Below are positions 15,057 through 34,949 of a DNA stretch of 64,000 nt, one piece after another. The stretch lies in NCBI RefSeq assembly GCF_000381745.1, contig NZ_KB906969.1, positions 1 to 64,000 on the forward strand, in the 5' to 3' direction. Position 1 is the first letter of the stretch. Every line of letters starts with the position of its first letter. This stretch comes from Psychromonas ossibalaenae ATCC BAA-1528 (lineage in GTDB: Bacteria; Pseudomonadota; Gammaproteobacteria; Enterobacterales; Psychromonadaceae). Both the position numbers and the translations under genes were made by a program. The notes beneath the pieces are model-generated. The model saw only the letters and a list, made by a program, of their open reading frames with translations, did no database searches and was not told the DNA's origin.

Positions 15057-15189
15057 CTGAGATACCTATGCTTTGCCATGACTGGGGTGGAGTGAAGTGG
15101 AAATAATACCCTAAGGCTAGGTCAGAAAGTTTTTTAAACAAAGCAGAAGCGTGATGCAGATATAAATTTTAAATAATAATTTCAGGTAT

Positions 15190-15219
15190 TAAAAAAGGGA
15201 GTGCTGTTAACACTCCCTT
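15190..15219 (-). terminator. Terminator of the chitinase gene
   Basis: A perfect 9-bp stem AAGGGAGTG (15195-15203 with 15211-15219) and 7-base loop run into a T-run on the minus strand, 20 bases past the chitinase stop. Confidence 0.85.
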
Positions 15220-15241
15220 AACATTGCTTTTTTACAAAAAA

Positions 15242-18073: not shown

Positions 18074-18946
18074 TTGTATCATCCTTAATTAAAATAAAAA
18101 CATTGATACCCGTTATCAGTCAAAATACATTTATGCACCTTGAATGATCACGGCTATAAACCAAGCATCAGGAGAGTAAAGCAGAAGAGGGAAAAAAGAT
18201 TAAAGGCAGTTTTATCTGGATAACTAAACAGAACTATCCCTGATAATACGCATCCGGCCACATCCTTGGTCCCAATAGTTTTACAACTTGCTAATACTAA
18301 TAAGCTTTTTATCGACACAACTAATTTCTCTGCGCGACATAACTAACAATCTTTTAGCTAATACTTATAAAACAAGCCTTCTAACGCTCAGTAAAATGAC
18401 TGATTCGAGCGATTTAAAGGGTACTAGCAGTTGTTTTTTTAATCAAGACATGACCTTATTTTGGATCTCGAATTATTTACCAACAAACAAAGTAAAATCA
18501 ATGTATTAGTGTTATTTTCGAGTGAATTTAGGTGTAAAGAAAACAATTTAAGTTGCTTTTTTGTGATCGAATTAACTAATAATTATCACGACTTACTTGG
18601 GTGATTGATGTTATTTACACCATTCCAGCCATAAATGAATAAAACTCATGCCTTCAGCAGCTCAATAAAATTATCAATATAAATCCCCCTAATAACACTC
18701 TGTACTATCGATTAATATTGGTAACAGTACAGATAAGCTAAATAGTGCAGACATCAGCAAAAAACCAAGATAAAAAATCATGCACATTTCGTTCAGCTAA
18801 ATTAATAATTACATTATGCTCCTCAGAAACAAAGTGGGGGCAGCTCCAATTTAGGTTTAATAAAGTAGTTAAAAAGAGGTATTATGCAGTTCATAATTCT
18901 GATTGTACCAATTATTGGAACAGCACATTTTCTGCGGATACTCATT
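18074..18946. other. 870-bp divergent intergenic region, chitinase/RND operon
   Basis: No convincing gene was found here. An open frame at 18288-18509 (+) begins without a ribosome site and has an ordinary AT-driven composition. The region must hold promoters for the chitinase (leftward) and the efflux operon (rightward). It contains one copy of a dispersed hairpin repeat (18106-18163). Confidence 0.5.
18106..18163. repeat. Dispersed imperfect hairpin repeat, copy A
   Basis: The core is ACCCGTTATCAGTCAAAATA, then TTGAATGATCACGGCTATAA, with the two halves nearly complementary (14-base arms, two mismatches). The same arrangement recurs at 31221-31267. This suggests a short repeated palindrome family in this genome. 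It sits just upstream of the chitinase start. Confidence 0.55.
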
Positions 18947-20059
18947 ATGATAAAAAATAGAAAAACGTTAACCTCTGCTGCCTTAGCTATAACTGCTTTA
19001 GTACTGTTGGGATGCGGAGACAAACAAGATAATCCGGATCAAGAATTACTACGCCCTGTACGTACAGCATTAGCAACAGAAGCTCCGCAAGGACTGGAGC
19101 TGCGTTTCGCAGGAACGATAGATTCAGCGTCTACAACCGCACTTAGTTTTCGTGTCGGCGGCACTATTCATCATTTTCCTGTAACAGTAGGGGCAAAGTT
19201 AAAACATGGGGATCTTATCGCTCAGCTTGATACAGCAGACCTAAACTTAAACTTAGAAAGAAGCAAAGCAGAACTTGCAGAATCCCATACTATTTTAGCC
19301 GCCAATCAGAGTCGTTTTAACCGCTTTTCCGATTTACATGCTCGACAGGCTCTTTCAGCAATGGACTATGATCTGGTAAAAGCCGAATATGAAGCTAGTT
19401 TAGCCCAGGTATCCCAAGCCGAAAAAGCCGTTGATTTAAGCCTGCGGCAAGTGAGCTATGCCAAACTAGCTGCTCCTGCAGATGGCTGTTATCTGTCTTC
19501 TACTAATGCTTCCGTAAATGAGAATATCAGTGCCGGCCACCGTATTGCCACATTAAACTGCGGCAATACAATGGAAATCACCTCAATTGTTTCAGGCGCA
19601 GTAGCAAACTTAATCACACTCGGGCAAAAAGTTGAAGCTATTATCAAGACGACTAAGGAGACCAGAGTAAATGCCACCATTACAGAAATAGGCCTAAGTT
19701 CAACGACAAGCGGTTTATACTTTGTCACCGCACAACTCGACCAGTCACAAGCGAATATCCGACCAAGTATGGCAGCTGAACTGCTGCTCAACAAAAGCTT
19801 CAATGATATAGAAAGCAGTGTGTGGGTACCTATGGTAAGTATTAATGAAGATCAAGGCGCACATTATGTGATGACCTTTGAAAGCGAAGACGGCATAAAT
19901 GGAATTGTACATAAAACCCCTGTTGAGGTCGGAAAATTCTCTCAAGGTTTTTTCCAAGTTAATAGCGGACTAGAAGTAGGGCAACATGTAATAACAGCAG
20001 GGTTAAGCCATATTTATGACGGGCTAAAAGTTAAGTTGTTAGTCGAGGATAATAAATAA
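18947..20059 (+). CDS. RND efflux periplasmic adaptor (membrane fusion lipoprotein)
   Basis: Links an inner-membrane RND pump to an outer-membrane channel. The chosen start at 18947 gives a lipoprotein signal with lipobox LLGC (Cys23); the longer frame from 18884 adds an odd hydrophobic leader and is not favoured. A biotinyl-lipoyl-like half-motif (HFPVTVGAKLKHGDLIAQLD) follows, then a helical hairpin (about 75-140), a second lipoyl half (LAAPADGCYL), and beta-barrel and membrane-proximal domains. The length of about 370 is typical. Its stop overlaps the pump start by one base (TAATG), which implies translational coupling. No outer-membrane channel gene is attached, so a channel encoded elsewhere, such as TolC, must be used. 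Substrates are not predictable. Confidence 0.88.
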   Translation: MIKNRKTLTSAALAITALVLLGCGDKQDNPDQELLRPVRTALATEAPQGLELRFAGTIDSASTTALSFRVGGTIHHFPVTVGAKLKHGDLIAQLDTADLNLNLERSKAELAESHTILAANQSRFNRFSDLHARQALSAMDYDLVKAEYEASLAQVSQAEKAVDLSLRQVSYAKLAAPADGCYLSSTNASVNENISAGHRIATLNCGNTMEITSIVSGAVANLITLGQKVEAIIKTTKETRVNATITEIGLSSTTSGLYFVTAQLDQSQANIRPSMAAELLLNKSFNDIESSVWVPMVSINEDQGAHYVMTFESEDGINGIVHKTPVEVGKFSQGFFQVNSGLEVGQHVITAGLSHIYDGLKVKLLVEDNK

Positions 20060-23000
20060 TGAATATCACGACTCTGGCCTTACGAAAGCAGCAGCTGATG
20101 ATACTGTTGATTTTCGCATCACTTGTCGCGGGCGTCTTTGCGTTTTTAAATATTCCTCAAGCGCAGGATCCTGGTTTTCCTATTCGAACAGCACAAGTCG
20201 TTACTACGTTTAACGGTGCATCACCACAACGAGTCGAAGAACTGGTAACTGACAAAATTGAAACAGCGATTCAGGAAATGCCTGAATTGGAAGGTATCAG
20301 CAGCCAGTCTAAAAATGGTGTTTCAATTATTAGTGTTGATATTCAAGATCAATATAAAGATCTTCGCCCAATTTGGGACAGCTTGCGCCGTAAAGTTGAT
20401 GCGGTTCAAAACGAGCTGCCTGAAGGTGCCGGACGCTCCGTTGTCAATGATGAATATGGTGATGTCTTCGGTATCGTTATCTCAATTGTGGCTGATGATT
20501 ATGAATACAAAGATAAACAAGAGATTGCCGACCAGGTTCGTGATAAATTTCTGAGAGTTCCGCAAGTTGGTAAAGTAGATATTTATGGAGAACAGGCTGA
20601 AAAAATCTATATCGAATATGATAACAGCCGACTAAAAGCACTTAACATTACGCCAACTTACATCGCTCAGTTTCTACAAAATAAAAATGTAATCCTATCA
20701 GGTGGTCAGTGGGAAACGCCCAGCGAAGTGGTTAATATAGAACCAAGCGGCAACTTAGAATCTGTAGATGCACTCAAAAAAACCTACATCCCATTACCAA
20801 ATTCAAGCGAGGTACTGCCGCTTGAAAATATTGCTCATGTATATCGAGGCTACGAGAATCCAGCACGCAGCTTAGTACATACCAATGGCTCACCAAGCCT
20901 CACCATTGCTATCTCAATGGTTGACGGCGGTAATATCATCAAACTGGGTGAAGATATTCAAGCGCAGCTCGATGAGTTTTTAGGCGTATATCCGTGGGGG
21001 GTAGACTTCGAAGTCATCTCTTTTCAACCTAAACTCGTTGCTGATACAGTAGACAGTTTTATGAGTAATCTGCTGCAGGCAGTCATTGTGGTTTCTGCCG
21101 TCATGCTCATAACACTCGGCTATCGAACCGGCATGATTGTCTCGAGTCTTATTCCGGTAACGATCGCGGCAACTGTCGCTATTATGTACTGGGCAGGGAT
21201 CGGTCTTGATCAGGTCTCACTTGCGGCGTTGATGATTGCGCTTGGTATGCTTGTCGATAACTCTATCGTGATGTCTGAAGGCATTATGACGCGGATGGAG
21301 CAAGGTGAAAAACCCTTTGATGCCTCCGTTAATACTGCAAATGAACTTAAAATTTCACTTCTCACTTCGTCATTAACGACTTCAGCAGCTTTCTTACCTA
21401 TTTTTTTAGCAGAGTCTACGACAGGGGAATATACTGCACCATTATTCACAGTGGTAACAATCACACTACTCGCATCTTGGTTCTTCGCTGTAACAATGAT
21501 CCCTATGTTATGTATGCTGTTCCTAAAAGTGAAGCTTAAGAAAAAAAATAAATCCAATACTGAGACGGAAAAAACAACATTGGATAAAGTGGAAAATATT
21601 TATGCCTCTCTGCTGCAGAAAGTGCTTAACTGGCGCTGGACCTCGCTGGCGAGTATCGGGCTGGTATTTATACTCGCGTTATATAGCTTTCGGTTTGTAC
21701 CGGTTATTTTCTTTCCTCCTTCAGAAGCACCTACGTTTAAGCTAGAGCTCGAGCTGCCGACAGGATCCCCCATTGCACGAACTCAAGAGGTGGTAAGCAG
21801 TATAGAGAGCTACCTTAGTTCCCTGACTGATGATGGTGAAAATTCAATGGGCTTAGTCAATTGGTCAGCGTTCATCGGTAATGGCGGCCCTCGTTATGTG
21901 CTGTCACATTCTACCAAGCCGGCTAGCCCAAACTATTCTGTATTTATCTTAAATACGAAAACAGGTGACGATGTCGAGCCCTTAATGAAGGCACTTGATC
22001 AACACATTTTTAGAAACTATCCCGATGTCAGCTATATGACGCGTAAAATTGAAAATGGTGCGGCTATCAAAAACCCAATCGAAGTTCGTATCATGGGAGA
22101 TGACAGTGAAACACTTTTGGGGATAGCCGGGACAGTAAAACAACAATTAAACTCAATAAAAGGTGTTAAAGGCATCAGCGACGACTGGGGTCTAAAAGCT
22201 AAGACTTATGCGGTACAAATTAATGAGGCAGAAGCACAGCGGTTAGGCATCACAAATAGTGATATTGCGGTGAATCTTCAAGCAAGCAGCAGCGGCTTAA
22301 AAGTTTCTGATTACCGTGAAGGTGAGGATATTATTCCTATCGTCATGCAGGCTAAGTCGAGAACCTCAAATTATATTGAGCGCCCTACCAGCGTTAATAT
22401 GATGATTCACGATGGCAGCTTTGTACCGATGGGGGCAGTAGTCACGCCTGATATAAAATGGGAACCGGCAGTCATTCCACGCCGCGATCGACAAAAAGCG
22501 ATCAGCGTGGCAGCAGGAATAGATTTTGATATGACTGCTGCTCAAGTAAACCGCAAGCTCGTGCCATGGTTAACTGAGCAGGCAAAAACATGGCCTACAG
22601 GTTATCGTTGGGAACTCGGGGGCGTTGCGGAATCATCAGGTCAAGCAAATAAGTCTATCTTCGAAAAACTCCCAATCGGGTTTATCATTATTCTTATATT
22701 ACTTATGGCTCAATTTAATTGTGTACGTAAATCTGCCATTATCTTAATGACTATTCCATTAGGCTTGATTGGAGTCTCATTCGGCTTAAATGTGATGGGA
22801 TCGTATATTGGTTTCATGACCATTTTAGGTATCATTTCACTTGCTGGTATTGTTATTAATAACGCAATCGTATTAATAGATCGTATTGATTATGAGAAAA
22901 ATGAAAATGGTTACTCGCCTTATTATGCCATTGTTGAAGCAGCAAAAAGACGGATGAGACCAATATTACTCACCACGGCGACAACTGTTGTGGGAATGAT

Positions 23001-23145
23001 TCCACTGTACTTAGGTGGAGGAGTCATGTGGGAACCAATGGCTGTTGCCATTATCTTTGGTCTTCTTGGCGCGACAGTATTAACACTGGGCGTTGTCCCG
23101 CTGTTATATTCAATCTTATTCCGTGTAAACACGAAAACCGCATAA
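20059..23145 (+). CDS. RND-family efflux permease
   Basis: A proton-driven inner-membrane exporter of the AcrB/HAE1 type, 1028 residues, with the usual two repeats of six helices and two large periplasmic loops. The start (LALRKQQLMILLIFASLVAGVFAF) is transmembrane helix 1. The helix 4 proton-relay region reads ALGMLVDNSIVMSEG, with Asp then Asn where AcrB has Asp-Asp; this variant is found in several HAE1 subfamilies. The second half has IISLAGIVINNAIVLIDRI. It overlaps the adaptor gene by one base. Substrate specificity is unknown. Confidence 0.92.
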   Translation: MNITTLALRKQQLMILLIFASLVAGVFAFLNIPQAQDPGFPIRTAQVVTTFNGASPQRVEELVTDKIETAIQEMPELEGISSQSKNGVSIISVDIQDQYKDLRPIWDSLRRKVDAVQNELPEGAGRSVVNDEYGDVFGIVISIVADDYEYKDKQEIADQVRDKFLRVPQVGKVDIYGEQAEKIYIEYDNSRLKALNITPTYIAQFLQNKNVILSGGQWETPSEVVNIEPSGNLESVDALKKTYIPLPNSSEVLPLENIAHVYRGYENPARSLVHTNGSPSLTIAISMVDGGNIIKLGEDIQAQLDEFLGVYPWGVDFEVISFQPKLVADTVDSFMSNLLQAVIVVSAVMLITLGYRTGMIVSSLIPVTIAATVAIMYWAGIGLDQVSLAALMIALGMLVDNSIVMSEGIMTRMEQGEKPFDASVNTANELKISLLTSSLTTSAAFLPIFLAESTTGEYTAPLFTVVTITLLASWFFAVTMIPMLCMLFLKVKLKKKNKSNTETEKTTLDKVENIYASLLQKVLNWRWTSLASIGLVFILALYSFRFVPVIFFPPSEAPTFKLELELPTGSPIARTQEVVSSIESYLSSLTDDGENSMGLVNWSAFIGNGGPRYVLSHSTKPASPNYSVFILNTKTGDDVEPLMKALDQHIFRNYPDVSYMTRKIENGAAIKNPIEVRIMGDDSETLLGIAGTVKQQLNSIKGVKGISDDWGLKAKTYAVQINEAEAQRLGITNSDIAVNLQASSSGLKVSDYREGEDIIPIVMQAKSRTSNYIERPTSVNMMIHDGSFVPMGAVVTPDIKWEPAVIPRRDRQKAISVAAGIDFDMTAAQVNRKLVPWLTEQAKTWPTGYRWELGGVAESSGQANKSIFEKLPIGFIIILILLMAQFNCVRKSAIILMTIPLGLIGVSFGLNVMGSYIGFMTILGIISLAGIVINNAIVLIDRIDYEKNENGYSPYYAIVEAAKRRMRPILLTTATTVVGMIPLYLGGGVMWEPMAVAIIFGLLGATVLTLGVVPLLYSILFRVNTKTA

Positions 23146-23175
23146 CGTCTTAAAATATTTACTCAAGGTCGTTAA

Positions 23176-23209
23176 TAAAAAATCCCGTAAAGTAGTAGTA
23201 CTTTACGGG
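23176..23209 (-). terminator. Strong hairpin after the RND permease gene
   Basis: A perfect 11-bp stem CCCGTAAAGTA (23184-23194 with 23199-23209) has loop GTAG. The T-run lies on the minus side (A-run 23176-23182 on +), so it would work best against leftward transcription, though it may also end the efflux mRNA. A related CCCGTAA hairpin terminates groEL at 27775-27799. Confidence 0.7.
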
Positions 23210-23369
23210 CTTAATCAAACCTTGTTAGCTACTATGAAATAATCAGAGCCTGATTTTACACCATACCTGCCAGAAAATGCCAATCAATTGATTTTAAACA
23301 AAAATACAGACAGAATGGTTAAGTATGAGGCTAAACTCCAAGCTTTGTATCCCTATACGCCTTGTAAAA

Positions 23370-23785
23370 CTACAAATTGGAAGCCAAATTCGCTATATCA
23401 CTACATTTTAATAATCGTTTAAATAAACGTACGGCAGCCCCTTTACCCTTGTGTTTTTGCACTAAAATATCAATTTTATCGCCACCTGAATCTACTGCTG
23501 GCAAAAGATAATGTAAAACGTCATTTATTTTTATAAAACTTTATCCAGATACTATGTATCACTAAGCTAACCACGGTTCTTTTTATTTGGCAGCCGTAAA
23601 TAGCACCGTATTTTTATACCACTAACGAACCGTTTCATAAATGACAACAACTTCCCTGCTACAAGCAATTCTTTAATATCACGCAAGCTAAGTATAAAGC
23701 GGTGATAAAGCCAAACTGCATGGTTGATAATTTGAATTGGGCAACGACAACCTGCATTTTCCATGCTGTTTGGGTATATCATCAA
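23370..23785 (-). pseudogene. Degenerate IS6-family transposase fragment
   Basis: Read leftward from about 23785, the sequence gives CPIQIINHAVWLYHRF then LSLRDIKELLVA, the characteristic N-terminal part of IS6-family (DDE) transposases. After a frameshift near 23655 the homology goes on with VVVIYETVR, KEPWLA, VLHYLLPAVDSGG, DILVQKHKGKGAAVRLFKRL and a stop at 23370. At least four in-frame stops interrupt it, and the C-terminal third is missing. The parts seen match the helix-turn-helix and the first catalytic Asp region of the family. No terminal inverted repeats were found. It is a mobile-element scar and cannot be functional. Confidence 0.8.
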
Positions 23786-24204
23786 TACAATTAAAAATTG
23801 ATAACCGCTCAGCAGAAGGGACTCCCACAGTCTTTATCATCAACGGTAGGCAGATCTTATTTTCTTGACCAAAAACAAAAACTATGCAAAACCATAAGAC
23901 TCTAGCTCATACCTGTAGGGTATTTATCCCTCAAAAACTCAAAAGTTGGTATCTGTCTCCTTCAGAAAATACTTAGGTAAATATCCCATTAATTAGCCAA
24001 AAGAAAAAATTTAAAACTTCAGGGCTAGAGGCTATTTTGCTTCAACAGTTGGCTTATATGAAGAATGGTTCTAGATTATATTAGAAACCAAGGCCAATAG
24101 AATGAACACAGAGAATAGCTAAAGTATAACTTTAGTCCTTTGAGAGCAGAATCAATAAACCTCCGGCTTTACCGACAGTAAGTTAACTAAGAGGATCATC
24201 TAAG

Positions 24205-24705
24205 ATGAATCAAGTTAAATTCAGTCTTTTTGTTTACTGCCTCATATTTTTAGTCTCCTTCTTCGATATTGTTATGGATTGGAAAACAATGGGAGGATTA
24301 AATTCACATATTCTCGTTGAAGTATTATCAGGAGTAATTGCTTTAGCGGCGTTTACCATTTTGTTTATATGGGATTTAAAAAAGAATAAACAGATGATTG
24401 TGCTCAAAAGTAGTTTAACCAATACCGAAAAGCAGTTAAGTGCTTCCCAGCTCCAAACCAAGAAATTAATAGGGGAATTATCTAAAATAATTCAAATTCA
24501 GTTTGATGAATGGAAGTTAACTAAAAGTGAAAAAGAGGTCGCTTTGCTGTTATTAAAAGGCTTAACATTGGATGAAATTGCAGGGATGCGCGAGACACGT
24601 GAAAAAACGGTACGCCAACAAGCGTCTAATCTATACAAAAAAGCCAGCATCGCTGGCCGGTATGAATTAGTCGCTTATTTTTTTGAAGATCTACTGATTA
24701 CTTAA
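24205..24705 (+). CDS. Membrane-anchored LuxR-type HTH protein
   Basis: A 166-residue protein with two predicted transmembrane helices (about 6-24 and 36-58), a helical/coiled-coil linker (about 60-100) and a C-terminal LuxR/GerE-type DNA-binding domain (about 106-166). The domain contains LTKSEKEVALLLLKGLTLDEIA and REKTVRQQASNLYKKASIAGR. It has no receiver or autoinducer-binding domain, so it would bind DNA from the membrane. It converges on the sulfide dehydrogenase-like pair and lies between two mobile-element relics. A role in controlling that pair is a guess from proximity. The start ATG is preceded by GAGGATC about 9 bases upstream. Confidence 0.75.
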   Translation: MNQVKFSLFVYCLIFLVSFFDIVMDWKTMGGLNSHILVEVLSGVIALAAFTILFIWDLKKNKQMIVLKSSLTNTEKQLSASQLQTKKLIGELSKIIQIQFDEWKLTKSEKEVALLLLKGLTLDEIAGMRETREKTVRQQASNLYKKASIAGRYELVAYFFEDLLIT

Positions 24706-24784
24706 TCTAAATGGAATCTCCCCTGCAGGGGGAATATACCAAATAGTTTGAATATAAAGAAAGGTTCAAAATTAATTGCCGATA

Positions 24785-26050
24785 TCACCCAAAGGTATCG
24801 TCAAACAAATTGCCTGCCCAATTAAACATCTCATTGTAATTATCTGCACTCGGTAACCCAGATGCAGGGTAACCAGCCCCAGGAACCAGCTGCATTTGTT
24901 TAGTCTCCGTATTGTATTCATATACAGCCGTCAGCCAACTAGCTTGGGTAGATGACACAGGGCTATAACAAGCCGAGTTTGTTTTGGGCTCTGGATCTAT
25001 TTGCAAGCCTTGCAATGAACGTAATATTGCATCTGCACACACTTTCGCTTCCGAGTTCCCCATATGACCGGCTTTTGGTTGAGCAGTTCCTTGTGAGTCA
25101 CCAATAATATGAATGTTACTTGCAAGGGTTGATTCATAATTCAATGGATTGACTGGCGCCCAATTTCCTATGTTTAAAGATGCATCAAAAATAATTTTTC
25201 CCGCTTTATGATTTGGAATGACATTCAATACTTTTGGGTTTAACGTATTTATTCCATTTATGGGATCATCATTTTCAATAAAAGTAACACTGCGAGTATT
25301 TGAATCGACACTTTGCACCACGGCATTAGGTCGATAAATAATTCCATAACCTTCAAACTGGGCATGGAACATCTCAGTTTCTACCGTTATATTTGCGTTA
25401 GCATCCAAAACAGTAACCACACAATTTGAAAAACCTTTGCTGTTTTTTAAATAATCAGCCACTACACAGGCGCGTTCATATGGTCCTGGAGGGCAACGAT
25501 AAGGCGATGCAGGTATCGTCATTACAAAGTGGTCACCATCAACCAATTCATCTACTTGAGTTTTTAATAGATTCGTTTGCACACCCGCTTTCCAAGCATG
25601 TGGAACTTTGCTTGAATCTAAACCAGGGATGTCAATAAAATCGATGCCCGGTGCTAAAATCAATCGATCATAACTTAGTGTACGACCATTACCGAGTGTC
25701 ACAACTTGACCTGTTTTATCAATGGAATCAACAGTAGTGTGAATCATATTGATTGCATATTTAGCACTGTGGCTGACATAGTTAAACTCTAAATTTTGGG
25801 TTGTTTTTTGGCCATTCAACACCAGGCTACTCAAGATGGGTGATATATAGGTTGGGTTTGGCTCAATCAATGTGACTTCAACAGCTAAACCTCCCCATAT
25901 TTTTAAATATTTGGCAGCGGCTGCTCCAGAAAACCCACCACCAACAACAACCACATGTGGGATCGCTGCAGCTCTAACCATTTGAGGAATCAATAACGCA
26001 GCCGTTCCAAAACCCATTGCCTTTAATAATATTCTACGTGAAATAATCAT
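24785..26050 (-). CDS. Flavocytochrome c sulfide dehydrogenase-like flavoprotein
   Basis: An FAD oxidoreductase of the FccB/SoxF family, which oxidises sulfide in the periplasm and hands electrons to a cytochrome c. The N-terminus SRRILLKAMGFGTAALLIP is a twin-arginine-type export signal. The FAD-binding motif VVVGGGFSGAAAAKYL and IEPNPTYISP follow. CPPGPYERAC holds the first redox Cys (about residue 186), and NSACYS holds the second (about 361). Their spacing of about 175 agrees with the known family disulfide. Other family marks are APGIDF and HAWKAG. The cytochrome gene ends 3 bases before its start, so the two form one unit. The true substrate (sulfide or another sulfur species) is inferred from family only. 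Confidence 0.87.
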   Translation of the reverse strand: MIISRRILLKAMGFGTAALLIPQMVRAAAIPHVVVVGGGFSGAAAAKYLKIWGGLAVEVTLIEPNPTYISPILSSLVLNGQKTTQNLEFNYVSHSAKYAINMIHTTVDSIDKTGQVVTLGNGRTLSYDRLILAPGIDFIDIPGLDSSKVPHAWKAGVQTNLLKTQVDELVDGDHFVMTIPASPYRCPPGPYERACVVADYLKNSKGFSNCVVTVLDANANITVETEMFHAQFEGYGIIYRPNAVVQSVDSNTRSVTFIENDDPINGINTLNPKVLNVIPNHKAGKIIFDASLNIGNWAPVNPLNYESTLASNIHIIGDSQGTAQPKAGHMGNSEAKVCADAILRSLQGLQIDPEPKTNSACYSPVSSTQASWLTAVYEYNTETKQMQLVPGAGYPASGLPSADNYNEMFNWAGNLFDDTFG

Positions 26051-26053
26051 CTG

Positions 26054-27082
26054 TTAATCCTCCTCTTCAGAACTTGGCTGGGTTGCTAACCACTCGGCTA
26101 ATACTATTATTTCTGCATTACTGTAACCGTGTGCTTGCGCTTCCATAATCGGTTCATCTTCTTCACCCGACTTAAACTCCTGCATCTCTTCTACGGTTTC
26201 AGAAACTGATTCACCTGTTATGCTGTCCCAGTCATTGGTTGAGTTTCCGTTCGTACCATGGCACTGGAAGCACTGTGAAGCGAGTAAACGACCAACTTTT
26301 GGTGTATATTCGCTAACAGGCGAGTAATATGGTATTTCCTCATCGTCATTATCTTCGATTTCATCCACATCTTTGATTCCATCGTTATCGTCATCGGTAT
26401 CGTATTGATCATCTACACCATCATCGTCATGGTCGTTATCGTCGATGTCATCAATATCTTTGATACCATCGTTATCATCATCTAAGTCTTCACGGTTAAA
26501 CTCACCATCGTTGTCATCATCTTCGTAGACATTCGGAATACCGTCATTATCACTGTCTAACACATCCAGCGTGACGATGACTGTCTGAGCACCGGCAGGG
26601 AAATCCACAGAAATCACAAGTGGTGTATCCACCACACTATCTCCATTAGCATCGATAATGCCTGTTGAATCTATCTCGAGTGGTACGTAACCTAAATTCA
26701 AGTTAACGGATGTATTGAAAAGAGAACTAGTAACACCATATGACTCAATAACAATTGGTGTAATTATTTGATTTTCTTCGCCTTTATTGGTAGTCATTAC
26801 TAAATGACAGTTCAAGCGAGAGGGAATGGTCAAACTAAATGAATGCTCAGTGGAACCGTCATCTATAGAATTAGCTGAAGAGTAACTGCCATCACTACAA
26901 AAGCCTTCAATAAAGGTGCCGGGTACTGTCCCGCTAACAATAGAGGTTGAAGATGCAGTACCTCCCACTGGATTAGAATCACCACCACCACCACCACCAC
27001 CACCACCATCACCACCACCACAGCCTGCTAACAACAATGCAGCAGATAAGCTAGTGAACATAAAAAATCGATGAGTTATCAT
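26054..27082 (-). CDS. Cytochrome c lipoprotein with Asp-rich calcium-binding-type repeats
   Basis: The predicted electron-accepting partner of the flavoprotein. A lipoprotein signal (LLLAGC, Cys21) is followed by a poly-Gly tract and a beta-type domain (about 45-170). An Asp-rich segment (about 175-245) comes next, with repeated DDDNDGI units of the thrombospondin type 3/EF-hand-like kind. The C-terminal class I cytochrome c has heme motif CFQCH (271-275) and a probable Met ligand in EPIMEAQA (near 312). The cytochrome part resembles FccA-type subunits (FQCHG-NGNS, FKSGE). Combining a surface-type lipoprotein, calcium-binding repeats and a monoheme domain is not the usual FccA layout. +2 Gly predicts outer-membrane sorting. 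It is the first gene of a two-gene unit. Confidence 0.82.
   Translation of the reverse strand: MITHRFFMFTSLSAALLLAGCGGGDGGGGGGGGGDSNPVGGTASSTSIVSGTVPGTFIEGFCSDGSYSSANSIDDGSTEHSFSLTIPSRLNCHLVMTTNKGEENQIITPIVIESYGVTSSLFNTSVNLNLGYVPLEIDSTGIIDANGDSVVDTPLVISVDFPAGAQTVIVTLDVLDSDNDGIPNVYEDDDNDGEFNREDLDDDNDGIKDIDDIDDNDHDDDGVDDQYDTDDDNDGIKDVDEIEDNDDEEIPYYSPVSEYTPKVGRLLASQCFQCHGTNGNSTNDWDSITGESVSETVEEMQEFKSGEEDEPIMEAQAHGYSNAEIIVLAEWLATQPSSEEED
26980..27021. repeat. Trinucleotide (ACC)n microsatellite
   Basis: A run of ACC triplets, broken once, encodes the poly-Gly tract just after the lipidated Cys of the cytochrome lipoprotein. Slippage would change the number of Gly residues and keep the frame. Confidence 0.85.
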
Positions 27083-27229
27083 TAATGACTCCTACTGATT
27101 TGTTTATTGATTGTAGGTTCCAGTTAGGCTCAAAACCTGCAGCCCCCTGAATCTATTTTGCGACATAAATATTAAAATATAAGTGAACTCTCTTCACTAG
27201 AACAGAGGACATATGTCTTGTTTTTAGTT

Positions 27230-27681
27230 TCTAATGAGATTTTTTTGGGGAAGGAGCTTCCTATACCAGAAATGGGGATATATGAATGTATTCAGGTCAA
27301 GTTCATCGGGCTTAACTATTGCTGCCCTATGTTTAACTTTTGGCAATGGCTTTAATATATCGCTCAACGGCCCCCTTAGGCTGGGTTACTTAGCGTTAAC
27401 CTATGCACCAGCAAATAACCAGACACTCGATTTATTACCGCTAATATATTAGGTGCCTTTTTAGGCGCACCAACCGCTTCAATGGCTAACATTAATTCCG
27501 AAATATGCCCTGCATTTATCTCTTCAATATGTAGATTACTTATACATTTAGAGCCAAGTTGTAACCATCGTTTAACTCTACGGCATGATCTTCTGAGCAA
27601 GAGTCTTTTTTGTTGTTCCCACCTGAACGTTTTACCATCAGGAGCGGATATATTTTTAACTTCTTGCACGGTTAAAACCAT
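27230..27681 (-). pseudogene. Degenerate tyrosine integrase (prophage/island type)
   Basis: From 27681 leftward the sequence reads VLTVQEVKNISAPDGKT, like the N-terminal domain of P4-type integrases. After divergence it continues with IEEINAGHISELMLAIEAVG, KAPNILAVINRVSGYLLVHR and LTLSNPA, which match the core-binding domain (IEARGA...RNPA in relatives). A frameshift then gives KGAVERYIKAIAK, the expected next block. Several stops follow, and the catalytic domain with the Arg-His-Arg-Tyr residues is missing. It marks an old island or prophage next to groEL. No adjacent tRNA or attachment repeats were found. Confidence 0.7.
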
Positions 27682-27767
27682 ACCTCCAGATAAAAAATCA
27701 ATCGATTAGGCAAAATGGTATAAGTCGGCACACAACAATTATGAAATGCTTTAGGAAGTGAAGTCAA

Positions 27768-27799
27768 TAAAAAAGCCCGTAAACTATAAGCTTACGGGC
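27768..27799 (-). terminator. groEL terminator
   Basis: An 8-bp stem GCCCGTAA/TTACGGGC (27775-27782, 27792-27799) is followed on the minus strand by a T-run (A-run 27769-27774 on +), about 35 bases past the groEL stop. Confidence 0.85.
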
Positions 27800-27833
27800 C
27801 TTTCTAGGAAGTGCTACTATTTAGGCAATACGT

Positions 27834-29516
<1,683 letters not shown>

Positions 29517-29543
29517 CTATTAAGAAAGCGTGCTGCAGTATTC

Positions 29544-29834
29544 TTATTCAACAACCGCCAGGATGTCGCTTTCACTTAAGATAAGCACTTCCTGACCTTC
29601 AATTTTTTCTGTTTTTAAACCGTAACCTTCACTGAAAATAACGATGTCTCCCACTTTTACGTCAAGTGGCTTTACTTCACCATTATCTAAAAGACGACCG
29701 TTACCCACGGCAAGAATTTCACCACGCGTTGATTTTTCAGCCGCACTTCCAGTTAATACAATACCGCCGGCCGAAGTTGTTTCCTGCTCAGTACGTTTTA
29801 AAATAACACGATCATGTAATGGACGAATAGTCAT
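29544..29834 (-). CDS. groS: Co-chaperonin GroES (Hsp10)
   Basis: The 96-residue lid of the GroEL chamber, full length. It starts [14 protein letters not shown], has the mobile loop [17 protein letters not shown], and ends ILAVVE. It is first in the groES-groEL operon, with a sigma-32-type promoter about 40 bases upstream of the start. Confidence 0.98.
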
Positions 29835-29876
29835 GGTTTTTCCTTAAAAATGTTTGTCTTTGGATGTACAAAACAG

Positions 29877-29903
29877 ATGGGGATTAAAAAATAGTTTATC
29901 AAG
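29877..29903 (-). promoter_or_regulatory. Sigma-32 heat-shock promoter of groESL
   Basis: On the minus strand CTTGATAAA (from 29903) is followed, after a normal spacer, by CCCCATCT (from 29882). It matches the sigma-32 consensus (CTTGAA, 13-17 bases, CCCCATnT) at nearly every position, with TGTCA just ahead of the -35. Transcription would start near 29869. Confidence 0.85.
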
Positions 29904-29935
29904 TGACAGAGTTAAAATTTTTTCATTAAGACCAA

Positions 29936-29966
29936 AAAAAACCTGTATTAACTATACAGGTTTTTT
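29936..29966 (-). terminator. Terminator between the 81-residue gene and groES
   Basis: A 12-bp stem (29936-29947 with 29955-29966) with A/T flanks on both sides could act in both directions. It insulates groESL from the upstream gene. Confidence 0.8.
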
Positions 29967-29992
29967 AAAAAGGCTATTTATAGAGAGTTAAC

Positions 29993-30238
29993 TTAAACGG
30001 CAGCGGGTCTCGGCTGCGATAATTCATTTATTATCTGATTAATCTCACTAACAGCTATCAGAATATTTTTTTCCGTCTTCTGATGCTGGTAAGCAACAAC
30101 CTTACCTTCAACCACCCTTAAGCGGCCTAAACCAACAATAAAAATACGACCGTTAAAAAAACCTTTTACAAACTTTGCAATTTGACGAGGATGATACTTT
30201 TTGAAACTTCTTAGCGTTATCGAATTTTTAATATTCAC
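29993..30238 (-). CDS. Small basic protein of unknown function
   Basis: An 81-residue protein that I do not recognise. It is basic at the N-terminus (TLRSFKKYHPRQIAKFVKGF), with a central GRIFIVGLGRLRVVEGKVV segment likely to form beta strands and an amphipathic C-terminal helix (ISEINQIINEL). It has no signal peptide. The ribosome site AAGGGA just upstream of the ATG and the terminator downstream support a real gene. It lies between fxsA and groES, all in the same direction. Confidence 0.6.
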   Translation of the reverse strand: MNIKNSITLRSFKKYHPRQIAKFVKGFFNGRIFIVGLGRLRVVEGKVVAYQHQKTEKNILIAVSEINQIINELSQPRPAAV

Positions 30239-30457
30239 ATTTATCCCTTATTATTTTTTGGACAATAAATCACATAACTAAAACACTAAATACTTTGAAC
30301 TCAATGAGTGTATTACCAATAGAATGCGCTAACTTATTATTATTTTTTGACAAAATAATGAAATTTAAACCGATTTCAACCCTTCTTTAGCAATACCTCC
30401 TCTACAAGACATCTTTTCCGTAATAATTACCCATTTCTGTGATATTCATCGAAAAAA

Positions 30458-30934
30458 CTATTTTTTATCATCCTTACGCTCAAACTCACCTTCAATAACA
30501 TCTTCTTCAACATGGCGGCTGCTAAAAGGAGAGCCGCTATGTGGTTGAGAAAATCCCCCTGACATAGCGCCGTGGGGGGCGAATTTAACATTCGCCAGCA
30601 GCAGCTGTGCTATTGCGCCTCGAATAGACGGCTGTAAAAGTAATAAACCACAAAAATCTGTCACAAATCCCGGGGTCACTAATAACACACCGGTAATAAT
30701 TAACATAATACCTTCAATCAACTGCTGTCCGGGCATTTCACCGCGTGCTATACGTTCCTGCAGCTGCTGTAACAGTTGTAATCCCTGGCTGCGTACTAAT
30801 GCCGACCCGACTAACGCGGTGACAACCACTAAAGCAACTGTCGGCCATGCACCTAAAAAACCACCTACTTTAACCAGAACAAAAATCTCTAATAATGAAA
30901 CGCTGGTAAAAACTAAAAATAATCTTGCAAACAT
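30458..30934 (-). CDS. fxsA: FxsA family membrane protein
   Basis: An inner-membrane protein of 158 residues. Its E. coli namesake, when overproduced, relieves exclusion of phage T7 by the F plasmid. Four hydrophobic stretches include LFLVFTSVSLLEIFVLVKVG at the start, GAWPTVALVVVTALVGSALV and EGIMLIITGVLLVTPGFVTD, with the family motif LVTPGFVTDFCGLLLL. A cytoplasmic charged tail (FERKDDKK) ends the protein. It lies upstream of groES, as in E. coli. Confidence 0.93.
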   Translation of the reverse strand: MFARLFLVFTSVSLLEIFVLVKVGGFLGAWPTVALVVVTALVGSALVRSQGLQLLQQLQERIARGEMPGQQLIEGIMLIITGVLLVTPGFVTDFCGLLLLQPSIRGAIAQLLLANVKFAPHGAMSGGFSQPHSGSPFSSRHVEEDVIEGEFERKDDKK

Positions 30935-31301
30935 GCTTACTCCTGATAAGGATTTAAAAAACTTTAATCTATCTTAATAATTAAATATGGACACATTATG
31001 ACAAATTCAAGGCCTTAGATTATATTTTGACCTGACAAGTCCAACTTATTGCTAAAAAATTCTTATTTTCATCACCTTATTAATCGACTCATTAGAACTA
31101 AAAAACTTCCCTGAAACTTGAAAACAGCTTTGCTTTACTTTCAGGACAGTTCTCAGCAGCGTGATTCACACGCTAAGCTTCAGTTATGTTAGTCAGCAAA
31201 ATATAAGAAAAGTTCAATATTTACCCGTTACCAGTCAAAATATACTTTGAATGATAACGGCTATAACAACACAAAGTGAACATTTGCTGTTAGCCAGCAG
31301 A
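30935..31301. other. 367-bp intergenic region with a dispersed hairpin
   Basis: No gene was seen. Contains a small hairpin (AGCGTG/CACGCT near 31155-31173) and copy B of the dispersed imperfect palindrome (31221-31267). Confidence 0.5.
31221..31267. repeat. Dispersed imperfect hairpin repeat, copy B
   Basis: CCGTTACCAGTCAAA and TTTGAATGATAACGG form 15-base arms with two mismatches around the loop ATATAC, flanked by TACC and CTATAA. It matches copy A at 18106-18163 in order and sequence, except that copy A has a longer centre. Confidence 0.55.
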
Positions 31302-32444
31302 TCAGGCCGTTTTCCATATTTTAAGGCACCATAAAACGGGTATTAACAATAGTGACATAATCAAAAATACCTGCCCTTGAAGCTGTTCATAGAAAATACC
31401 GGAGACATAGGTAAACAACGCCATCAACAGTCCCAGCGCCACTCCTGAATAAAGAGTCTGATAAGGCACCATATCGATATTTTTCTGCTGACTGATATAA
31501 CGAATAGCCGCTAAATGGGTCACAGCAAAAGTAAATGCGTGAAATGTCTGAACAACTGCCAGCAGATAAACATTATCTGTAAATGAGATCACCCACCAGC
31601 GGGCAATTCCTGCACACAAGCCTAACAGAATCATCTGCTTGATCGACCAGTTAGTGAACAGTTTTTTATTGAAACGCATCAATAGGACTTCAGCAGCAAC
31701 CGCAATCGCCCATAACCAGGCAATATTTGACTCGGAAATGCCGATACCTTTCCAGTAAATGGAGCTGAACGCATAATAAGCACCGTGACTGCCTTGAATT
31801 GAACCGACAACAATTAAAAACAGCAGAACATTGCGCTGCTTCAGCAATGAGAGAAGAGACTGTTTAACACCCTGCTCCTGCGTTTGTCCGTCATCTAACT
31901 GCGGTGTTAACTTTAATAAACTGACTGTCCACATAACCGCCGATGCACCGACAATCAGCCATAATATTGACGGCTGACCATACTCAACTATTAACCAGCC
32001 GATACAACTGGAGCCGGCAATAAAACTTAATGAGCCCCATAAACGAACCCGCCCGTAATCTAACTGAATCTGATTCACTAAGCGGGTACCAATAATATCC
32101 CCCAAGGGAACCAGCGGCCCGATCACAAAGTTAATCGTCAAAGTAATGACGGACAACCACAGGTACCCCTGCAGATAAAACAGAACCGCAAATGCAAGCA
32201 GGGTCAGAAAACTTAATACACGTAATAAACGCAAAATAGAAGAACCGCTGCTGACCAGCGGCAGTAATCCCATACTACTGACAAAACGCAGTACCAGCCC
32301 GACAGAAAACAGCAAACCAATATCTTCAGCGGATATTCCCTGCCCGGACAGCCACACGCCCCAGAAAGGTAAAAACACTCCCCATACAAAATAGAAAGCA
32401 ACAAAATAAAGGGTTAACCAGGATTTAGCAGCAACAGTAAACAA
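31302..32444 (-). CDS. MFS transporter, HcaT-like
   Basis: A 380-residue inner-membrane transporter with about 12 predicted helices. It belongs to the branch of E. coli HcaT (putative 3-phenylpropionate transporter) and related LacY/nucleoside symporter-like proteins. Clues are FVWGVFLPFWGVWL near the start, GPLVPLGDIIGTRL, and DYGRVRLWGSLSFI, a signature loop. It follows the beta-mannosidase gene in the same direction, 72 bases on, with a hairpin between. This raises the possibility of sugar or oligosaccharide uptake, although the family includes aromatic acid carriers. Substrate unproven. Confidence 0.85.
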   Translation of the reverse strand: MFTVAAKSWLTLYFVAFYFVWGVFLPFWGVWLSGQGISAEDIGLLFSVGLVLRFVSSMGLLPLVSSGSSILRLLRVLSFLTLLAFAVLFYLQGYLWLSVITLTINFVIGPLVPLGDIIGTRLVNQIQLDYGRVRLWGSLSFIAGSSCIGWLIVEYGQPSILWLIVGASAVMWTVSLLKLTPQLDDGQTQEQGVKQSLLSLLKQRNVLLFLIVVGSIQGSHGAYYAFSSIYWKGIGISESNIAWLWAIAVAAEVLLMRFNKKLFTNWSIKQMILLGLCAGIARWWVISFTDNVYLLAVVQTFHAFTFAVTHLAAIRYISQQKNIDMVPYQTLYSGVALGLLMALFTYVSGIFYEQLQGQVFLIMSLLLIPVLWCLKIWKTA

Positions 32445-32479
32445 CAGATACCTCTATGAATTAATGAGAGTTACAAATA

Positions 32480-32508
32480 AACAAGGCTGATAGTACATCA
32501 GCCTTGTT
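32480..32508 (-). terminator. Hairpin between mannosidase and MFS genes
   Basis: A perfect 12-bp stem (32480-32491 with 32497-32508) and 5-base loop are followed by TTTATTTG on the minus strand. It probably reduces or ends transcription before the transporter gene. Confidence 0.65.
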
Positions 32509-32516
32509 CAAAAGTG

Positions 32517-34949
32517 TTAAGAATAACTATGATACAAATCGTAAACCCTTAAGCCCTCTTTTAACTCTTCGAGTTCAGCCTCTCCAATATAAGCAATTGT
32601 TTGCGGTTCGCCAGGCAGTAAAGTAAAACTTGAATCAGTAAACCGCCCTGTTCCCTGATACTCTAGATGCACAAAAAATGCAGGGTTTTCTGCACTTATT
32701 ACAACTTCAAGTCCCGCTTGTGTTTCAATAATCTCATAGCTTATTTTAGGATCGGCAAATTCACACTGTTTCGGCTTAGCCGGAAAATAAGTATTATTGA
32801 AACTGACCTTGTTATTATTCAGATTCACATAAAAGAAACCTTCTGCCTCAAACCCGCTGATTTTCTCTAACGGCCAGGACCACAACTCAACATTTCCATC
32901 AGCCTCAACGTATCCTGATATCAGCTCTCGAGACAAAACTTCGCCGTTCCAGCTCTGCCAGAACAGCTCACCATCTAACTCAACGGCAGTTTTCGCATCA
33001 TTCACGACCCGCAGGGTTAAATGTGTTTCAGACTTCACAAATACCGCTAATAACGGTGCAAAAAAACGTTTCGCCTGATAATGAAGCTGTTTCCAGCGGC
33101 CGTCATACTCAATTGACGACCATGAACTCACCGGCCAGCAGTCGTTTAACTGCCAGTATAAAATACCGCGGTTAATCGGCTTACGTGAACGCCAATATTC
33201 ACTGGCTGTTTTAATAGCCACCGACTGCTGTACCTGACTGAGATAGAGCATATTTTCAAAACCATTGGGAAAACGATAATAACGGGTAAACATTTCGGTA
33301 ATAATGGAATTACCTTTGGCATTTTTCTGATGGCTTTCAAAGGACGGCGAAGTCACATTCCAGTCATTCTGCGGCGCAAATTTTTTCACCGTTGGTAAAG
33401 AGGGCCAGGATTGAAAACCAAATTCAGAGCAGAAACGCGGATTAACTTCGGTATAAGCATCAATAGATTTCCCTGAGTGCCAGACATCCCAGTAATGCAT
33501 ATCACCGCGGTTATCATCGTGCCAGGCATCACCAAAATCCAGTTCGCCGTTACAGGGGGAACTTGCCCAGAAACGTCGCCCGGGATCGGCTTGAGTAACA
33601 CTTTGTTCAAGCACTCGATTTAATCGGTCATAATTAACCACATATTTTTCGCGGTTAGCACGGGACTCCGGATACCAGCCGATTGCACCAATCACTTCGT
33701 TATCACCGCACCATAAAGCAATACAGGCATGATTTCGTAAACGCTTAACCTGATAGTCAACCTCAGCACTGACCTGCTTAATAAAATCAGGTGTTGAAGG
33801 ATATAACGCACAGGCGAACATGAGATCCTGCCAGACTAACAGACCTAATTCGTCACATAACTCATAAAAAATATCATGCTCATAAATTCCGCCTCCCCAG
33901 ACCCGAAGCATATTCATATTAGCGGCGGCAGCATCACTGAGCATCTGACGATAGCGCTGTTCACTATTGCGTCCAGGCATTGCATCTAAGGGGATCCAGT
34001 TAGCCCCCTTCGCACTGACCGGAAAACCATTAACCTTAAAGTACATGCTGGATCCGGTTTCATCCTCTTCAGTAATTAACTGCAGTTCCCGCAGGCCGAT
34101 TTTTTTAGCAATGACTTGTCCGTCGAGTGTCACTTTTAACGGATAAAGATACTGCTCTCCATAACCTGCCGGCCACCATCGCTTTGCCTCTGTGACAGTA
34201 AATGACACTACTGTTTTATTAGTCTGAATATCAACCGGGACTTCTATAATCTGCTCATTAAATTCAATAACAGCTGAACAGGTTGAGTTGCGCAGTGCTT
34301 TATAATCAATACTGACATTAACAGTACAGTTTTCTGCACACCATACCTGCTCTGTCTGCACTGCCAATAATGCTGTGCTCTCTACCGCCTGCAGAGTAAT
34401 ATCACCATACACACCCGCGACCGATAAACAGATGCCCCAGTCCCATCCAGCGTGGCACTGTGCCTTACGTAATGTATTCATATGCGGAATTTTATTATTA
34501 CCAACAGCCCAGGGAATTGGAAAGGGTAATTTTTCCGCCTGAGCACGGGCGGCAAGATCCGCACGTTTTAATAATATTTCAATGCTGTTTTTGCCGGGCA
34601 CAGCAAAAGGAAGAATATCTATATTTAATGCCAGAAACATATTGGAGCTGTCAGTCACAGCCTGTCCGTTAATTTTAATTTCAGCGATGGTATCTAAATA
34701 TTCAAGACTAAGTTCCAGTGAAGCAGCATTAAACACCGACTCAGCAAGCTCAAAAGAACGCTTCAGCCGCCATTCACACTGCCCGACCCACTGCACTTTT
34801 TTTTCATTATCTGCCCAGTAAGGGTCGACAATTTCACCGGCATCGAGCAGCGCACAATGCACATCGCCAGGTAACTGAATTGCGATATTTTTAATTTCAG
34901 GCTGATCAATGCAGTCAAGCAGCCATTCACCATTAAGGGAAAACATCAT
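32517..34949 (-). CDS. Beta-mannosidase, glycoside hydrolase family 2
   Basis: Removes terminal beta-linked mannose from manno-oligosaccharides. The 810-residue protein has the GH2 sugar-binding N-domain (SLNGEWLLDCID, WVGQCEWRLKRSF), an immunoglobulin-like domain and a barrel. The barrel carries RVWGGGIYEHDIFYELCDELG, acid/base Glu in WCGDNEV and nucleophile Glu in SEFGFQSWPS. No signal peptide is present, so it acts in the cytoplasm on imported sugars. Two adjacent ATG codons (34949, 34946) sit after GGAG. It pairs with the MFS gene downstream, and no local regulator was found. Confidence 0.93.
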   Translation of the reverse strand: MMFSLNGEWLLDCIDQPEIKNIAIQLPGDVHCALLDAGEIVDPYWADNEKKVQWVGQCEWRLKRSFELAESVFNAASLELSLEYLDTIAEIKINGQAVTDSSNMFLALNIDILPFAVPGKNSIEILLKRADLAARAQAEKLPFPIPWAVGNNKIPHMNTLRKAQCHAGWDWGICLSVAGVYGDITLQAVESTALLAVQTEQVWCAENCTVNVSIDYKALRNSTCSAVIEFNEQIIEVPVDIQTNKTVVSFTVTEAKRWWPAGYGEQYLYPLKVTLDGQVIAKKIGLRELQLITEEDETGSSMYFKVNGFPVSAKGANWIPLDAMPGRNSEQRYRQMLSDAAAANMNMLRVWGGGIYEHDIFYELCDELGLLVWQDLMFACALYPSTPDFIKQVSAEVDYQVKRLRNHACIALWCGDNEVIGAIGWYPESRANREKYVVNYDRLNRVLEQSVTQADPGRRFWASSPCNGELDFGDAWHDDNRGDMHYWDVWHSGKSIDAYTEVNPRFCSEFGFQSWPSLPTVKKFAPQNDWNVTSPSFESHQKNAKGNSIITEMFTRYYRFPNGFENMLYLSQVQQSVAIKTASEYWRSRKPINRGILYWQLNDCWPVSSWSSIEYDGRWKQLHYQAKRFFAPLLAVFVKSETHLTLRVVNDAKTAVELDGELFWQSWNGEVLSRELISGYVEADGNVELWSWPLEKISGFEAEGFFYVNLNNNKVSFNNTYFPAKPKQCEFADPKISYEIIETQAGLEVVISAENPAFFVHLEYQGTGRFTDSSFTLLPGEPQTIAYIGEAELEELKEGLRVYDLYHSYS

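Follow-up and report, generated by a model that had tools for sequence, protein, structure and literature searches.

A probable outer-membrane-tethered sulfide dehydrogenase cassette of Thiomicrorhabdus descent in Psychromonas ossibalaenae

The three-gene module and its products

Analysis of a 64,000-nucleotide stretch of Psychromonas ossibalaenae ATCC BAA-1528 (the window; contig NZ_KB906969.1, positions 1 to 64,000) revealed a module of three genes, encoding a flavoprotein of the FccB type, an FccA-like lipoprotein cytochrome and a LuxR-type regulator (Table 1). The reading frames of fccB and of the lipoprotein were found exactly at the coordinates given there, both on the minus strand, with the lipoprotein gene upstream and a gap of 3 bases between them.

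Table 1. Features of the module and of its surroundings in the window
Feature	Position	Strand	Evidence or remark
Block missing at this place in relative G023	18624-27833	.	9.2 kb, collinear flanks; holds RND pump and module
RND efflux pair, adaptor and permease	18884-23145		Same accessory block as the cassette
IS6-family transposase relic	23567-23785	-	NF033587 E 1.1e-5, residues 12-42 of 72 (31 residues), under family cut-off
LuxR/GerE-type regulator, 166 aa	24205-24705	+	Convergent to fccB; C-terminal HTH
Hairpin, possible terminator	24718-24734	.	Between stops of convergent regulator and fccB; pattern match only
FccB flavoprotein, 421 aa	24785-26050	-	Pfam domains, phmmer, redox cysteines, alignment
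FccA-like lipoprotein cytochrome, 342 aa	26054-27082	-	Motifs, structure model, fold and sequence matches
Lipoprotein: signal and lipobox LLLAGC	Cys21, Gly at +2		Motif
Lipoprotein: poly-Gly tether	Between lipobox and beta domain		Sequence
Lipoprotein: beta domain	About residues 45-172		pLDDT 73-94 by ten-residue block (residues 46-170)
Lipoprotein: TSP3-like Asp repeats	About residues 173-250		Blocks mostly pLDDT 62-83, last 42
Lipoprotein: single-heme domain	About residues 259-336		C271xxC274H275, Met313; blocks pLDDT 53-79
Integrase-like relic (weak), between module and groEL	27376-27681	-	PF22022 E 3.8e-4, under gathering score

Pfam analysis found the domains FCSD_central (5.4e-25) and FCSD-flav_bind (1.3e-8) in FccB, both over their gathering scores. 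When compared by phmmer with solved FCSD flavoproteins, FccB matched 3vrd_B (4e-64) and 1fcd_A (1.8e-62) along its length, and alignment showed it to be 40% identical to a solved FccB; identity as an SQR was dropped, the best SQR chain reaching 2.4e-9 against the 4e-64 of 3vrd_B. The motif CPPGPYERA is present, and C186 and C361 align with the redox-active cysteines C161 and C337. Both of these positions and that of E167 are conserved in all 100 rows of the FccB alignment (99 genome rows and 3vrd), and W391 in 99 of them. The alignment thus confirms the original prediction, made from the sequence alone, of a flavoprotein with this motif and both redox cysteines. To the eye, the start of FccB looks like a twin-arginine signal.

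The structure model of the lipoprotein has a mean pLDDT of only 69.8 and a pTM of 0.54; in its Asp-repeat part, DxDxDG-rich stretches are separated by three-residue helices. The heme domain found its best sequence match (6.5e-11), and also its top fold match, in the FccA chain 5n1t_B, which identifies the product of the adjacent gene as a c-type cytochrome subunit of the FccA type. At E ≤ 0.001 the fold search for the beta domain matched just two PDB entries, both of them FccA heme subunits, and the best other fold for the lipoprotein was the lipase 2zyh_A (E 0.010, rmsd 10.3). Lipobox, model and heme match together bear out the earlier description of a lipoprotein with poly-Gly, a beta domain, Asp-rich repeats and one CxxCH.

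In the alignment of 21 such cytochromes (A4), the lipobox cysteine, the CxxCH and the Met313 ligand are invariant (CxxCH and Met in 21/21), and all 20 lipoproteins with a complete N-terminus have a lipobox, followed at +2 by Gly in 19 and Ser in one. By motif, a lipobox cysteine behind a hydrophobic signal and with no Asp at +2 is that of an outer-membrane lipoprotein, and by the E. coli +2 rule the protein would be sorted to that membrane. A regex search found DxDxDG-type motifs at least three times in 20 of 21 beta-domain lipoproteins (range 1-12, five in the window), a set that takes in L101 and not L103, A4 itself taking in L103. The Pfam family TSP3_bac (PF18884) scored in just one of the 21 A4 members (E 0.041), and, setting aside cytochrome families and a weak match to a SoxA/TsdA cytochrome in two members, no Pfam family was found in more than one of them. 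A chance low-complexity Asp run was dropped on the presence of the motifs in 20 of 21 homologues and on a dN/dS of 0.155 over the 78 codons of the repeats.

The stalk is not present everywhere. L102 has a single DxDxDG motif, its inter-domain repeats being gone, and L103 has neither beta domain nor repeats and retains lipobox and heme. Since anchor and heme are kept throughout and these two lose parts of the stalk, the stalk is the variable part. The idea of a lipid-anchored, calcium-rigidified cytochrome therefore stands most firmly on its anchor: across these sequences the anchor varies less than the calcium-type rod, which appears dispensable, while rigidification by calcium is plausible. 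Asp-rich tails C-terminal to the heme domain were seen in L099 and L102, in the latter despite its missing repeats. A beta domain of the GTVPGT type also heads three other cytochrome lipoproteins (L029, L030 and L031), one bearing several CxxCH motifs, with no FccB within the few kb read around them.

The regulator was assigned to the LuxR type by its GerE HTH (PF00196, 25.2 bits, cut-off 23.5); NF047608 gave 78.8 bits, under its cut-off of 200. Two hydrophobic stretches lie near its N-terminus, peaking, as averages over 19 residues, at 2.06 (around residue 5) and 2.47 (around residue 37). In the model (mean pLDDT 81.3, pTM 0.44), helices span residues 3-29 and 34-102, and the C-terminal part consists of four helices. 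The regulator is probably membrane-bound. A promoter scan was uninformative, giving 7 sites against 10.2 in shuffles.

The flavin attachment site and the distribution of the module

According to two papers (PMC12010331, PMC3504083), the FAD of FCSD is covalently tied to a conserved cysteine. The residue aligned to this Cys42 is cysteine in 3vrd, 1fcd and 5n1t and proline in the window FccB (YxSPILS), which is therefore called an FCSD variant and not a standard FCSD. Judged from this substitution, its FAD probably lacks the customary thioether link, and the cassette enzyme seems to have a looser grip on its flavin than is usual. The lost cysteine, the LuxR-type gene and the recurrence of the pair in other genomes were not part of the original prediction. 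A canonical soluble FCSD was dropped as an identity because the partner has a lipobox and the cysteine for FAD is lost.

At the Cys42 position, the 100 FccB rows have Cys in 68, Pro in 29, Gly in two and Ser in one, counts that are not population frequencies, since the genome rows comprise the sequences that best matched our alignment, loci retrieved deliberately and 40 positions selected manually from the class-wide list. The window falls into one FccB clade of 30 rows (support 100/100) with Pro in 28; the two exceptions are L108 (Ser), a basal long branch flagged by the tree, and L109 (Cys). Cys42 was found to be lost in other FccB lineages too (L156 Gly, L157 Pro, L158 Gly). By a loose motif test, a lipobox-like partner accompanies 26 of the 29 Pro rows, 5 of the 60 Cys rows with a partner (seven further Cys rows, for which no partner was found, were excluded), one of the two Gly rows and not the single Ser row. 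The Pro rows without one are L101 (cut by the contig end), L107/L042 and L157. The statement that usual FccA subunits are small and soluble is thus broadly right. An independent-pairs test of Cys42 loss against a beta-domain partner, not against the lipobox, had only five pairs and was undecided, so the association between Cys42 loss and a lipoprotein partner may be plain inheritance instead of a functional link.

Pro at position 42 could alter the redox chemistry enough for a different substrate, and the clade lacking the FAD cysteine might use another sulfur species (polysulfide, thiosulfate or a low-molecular thiol) or work at another potential, beside an ordinary FCSD in the same genome. 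The distinctness of the Pro-type clade is consistent with this, as are two further observations: G289, a Thiomicrorhabdus genome, also holds two Cys42 FccAB pairs (L147, L148), and in five loci (L088, L090, L091, L092, L093) a second Pro-type FccAB pair, whose cytochrome is short and lipoprotein-like (143-147 aa), adjoins the module. However, no change was seen at the catalytic positions tested, other lineages have sporadically lost Cys42 as well and the base of the clade is occupied by the long branch L108; we consider another substrate or potential unlikely.

FccB and lipoprotein were found adjacent in 21 genomes: 17 of 32 in genus g225, taken as Thiomicrorhabdus; 2 of 24 in genus g1, taken as Psychromonas; and 2 of 5 in family f36. 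Full-length FccB is likewise present in 2 of the 24 Psychromonas genomes, the source genome counted, three of the 24 being less than 90% complete. Among 62 genomes of the g225 family, the lipoprotein profile matched 18, every one within the 32 of g225, and 17 of these 18 matches have beta domain and heme and adjoin FccB (the start of L101 being cut off); the eighteenth, G506 (L103), is limited to a lipobox, an acidic stretch and the heme. In a class-wide draw the profile matched 11 of 369 genomes, four of them (G000, G289, G107 and G369) with the full architecture beside FccB, three in the N-terminal and repeat part and four in the heme part. FccB is generally common, with matches in 123 of the 369 genomes at E 1e-50, and its frequency in heterotrophs is already known from an earlier study (PMC12345210).

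The regulator lies close to the module in 17 of 18 fetched g225 loci (16 of the 17 with a beta domain, and L103) and in both Psychromonas loci; in L099 it is 3 kb away. In L100, the only g225 locus without it, the contig stops 416 bases past fccB. No regulator was found in L104 and L105, the loci of the two f36 pairs.

The original prediction was to count as refuted if such partners proved common and already described. The architecture does recur, in more than half of the genomes of one genus as counted above, and no description of it was found in the literature searched, which lay mostly outside subscription journals; provisionally, we regard it as undescribed.

Origin of the cassette and selection on its genes

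The FccB tree pairs the window with P. antarctica (100/100) and places both with the g225 locus L087 (99/83) within the Thiomicrorhabdus clade. The lipoprotein tree agrees, grouping the same three at 100/99, and so does, with weak support (91/90), the tree of the regulator, built on 18 sequences including that of the window. At the sequence level the cassette is thus shown to descend from within the Thiomicrorhabdus lineage, and the donor lineage shared by the FccB and lipoprotein trees, and weakly by the regulator tree, suggests transfer as a unit. The three-gene cassette was apparently acquired from sulfur-oxidizing bacteria.

Comparison with G023, the closest relative by groEL (99%), showed that the 9.2-kb block (18624-27833) is missing there at this place. 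Positions 15001-18623 and 27834-33000 of the window are collinear in G023 with small gaps, and in place of the block G023 has 4.6 kb of other genes (L193 9642-14234), making this a variable block downstream of groEL. By reading of their sequences, the genes there comprise two MBL-fold-like genes, an SDR-like gene, a LysR-like gene and two small ORFs; no full FccB was found in G023. In P. antarctica DSM 10704 the cassette is on a 6.7-kb contig with different neighbours, so the cassette sites of the two species differ. The pair had been described as an island between mobile-element relics, which holds on one side, where an IS6 transposase fragment lies; the other side has just the sub-threshold integrase-like fragment, which found no match in NCBIfam or PHROGs. 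Composition is uninformative on transfer (GC 0.40 in the module, 0.415 in the window), a plasmid search returned 135 records, every one below 60% identity, and Rfam and tRNA scans found nothing.

Between the two Psychromonas copies, dN/dS by the Nei-Gojobori method is 0.106 for fccB, 0.196 for the lipoprotein and 0.154 for the regulator. Within the lipoprotein it is lowest in the heme domain (0.053), followed by the repeats at the value given above, the beta domain (0.276) and the N-terminus including the poly-Gly (0.361, from 34 codons). Purifying selection acts on each of the three genes and is strongest on the heme domain. The transposase and integrase-like relics flanking the cassette and the variability of the block would suit a non-functional import decaying in Psychromonas, a reading that three intact reading frames and dN/dS values of 0.106-0.196 make extremely improbable; it was dropped. 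With its redox cysteines kept and both fccB and the heme domain so constrained, the enzyme is probably active, as had been supposed from its appearance.

Proposed function and comparison with known systems

We consider it likely that the module is a functional, outer-membrane-tethered periplasmic FCSD, acquired horizontally as a self-contained cassette and passing electrons from sulfide to the cytochrome c pool. FccB would be exported folded via Tat, and its Cys-Cys/FAD site would oxidise sulfide to zero-valent sulfur or polysulfide. The electrons would pass from FccB to the one heme carried by its partner, an outer-membrane lipoprotein whose poly-Gly tether, beta domain and acidic calcium-type repeats may space the complex from the membrane within the periplasm, and onward through soluble cytochrome c to a cbb3 oxidase, for which ccoN was found over cut-off in the source genome. 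The LuxR-type protein, probably membrane-bound, likely controls the cassette genes. For SoxB and DsrA the source genome gave no match over cut-off (8 and 3 weak matches, respectively), and the control genomes also gave only weak matches, none passing; sulfide oxidation would therefore stop at zero-valent sulfur unless other enzymes take over.

A lipoprotein of the outer-membrane type, bearing a long acidic spacer, would also fit the same enzyme displayed outside the cell, the stalk placing it toward extracellular sulfide, sulfur or other cells, and the occurrence of the beta domain at the head of other cytochrome lipoproteins (L029, L030, L031), the multi-CxxCH one included, points the same way. 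However, FccB looks by eye like a Tat substrate and would thus be released into the periplasm, and the three-gene module has no secretion or conduit gene; a search for an MtrB/PioB conduit was silent in the source genome, and likewise in all control genomes. Display outside the cell is in our judgement very unlikely, and the earlier idea of electron transfer at or outside the cell surface is left unsupported.

The tethered periplasmic enzyme would be an FCSD subgroup that differs from the textbook enzyme in anchor, flavin attachment and gene neighbour, and that shares at least one genome (G289) with a Cys42-type FCSD. A study on Thioalkalivibrio (PMC6382920) calls it open what a sulfur bacterium gains from several copies of fccAB, a question now testable in one strain, and the natural variants L102 (no repeats) and L103 (no repeats or beta domain) are ready comparisons for the role of the stalk. 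In an Arctic spring, 99% of the fccAB transcripts are reported to have come from Thiomicrorhabdus sp. GH6, be they of the cassette type or of another (PMC10494364). The Psychromonas case suggests a single cassette as a route by which a bacterium can gain sulfide oxidation. Tentatively, one may go further and see in it a transferable class of membrane-tethered sulfide dehydrogenase, with non-covalent FAD, its own membrane-bound one-component regulator and an acidic calcium stalk that would fix how far the enzyme stands off the outer membrane (or display it outside), giving one-step sulfide oxidation to a bacterium without Sox or Dsr.

Among known systems, the bacterial TSP3 repeats (TSP3_bac) share DxDxDG-rich stretches with the cassette lipoprotein, the family scoring in one of 21 members, and weakly. 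Membrane-bound FCSDs are reportedly on record from Thiobacillus sp. W5, by Visser in 1997, and from Ectothiorhodospira vacuolata, by Kostanjevecki in 2000. Going by the titles of these studies, both are membrane-bound, as proposed for the cassette enzyme. The closest system is FccAB (1fcd, 3vrd and 5n1t, the last from Thioalkalivibrio paradoxus), with the same FccB domains, redox cysteine pair and adjoining FccA-type heme domain, the 102-residue partner in 5n1t being the nearest single-domain FccA. Unlike FccAB, the cassette has as partner a lipoprotein with a beta domain and Asp repeats, proline in place of the FAD cysteine, and an attached LuxR-type gene.
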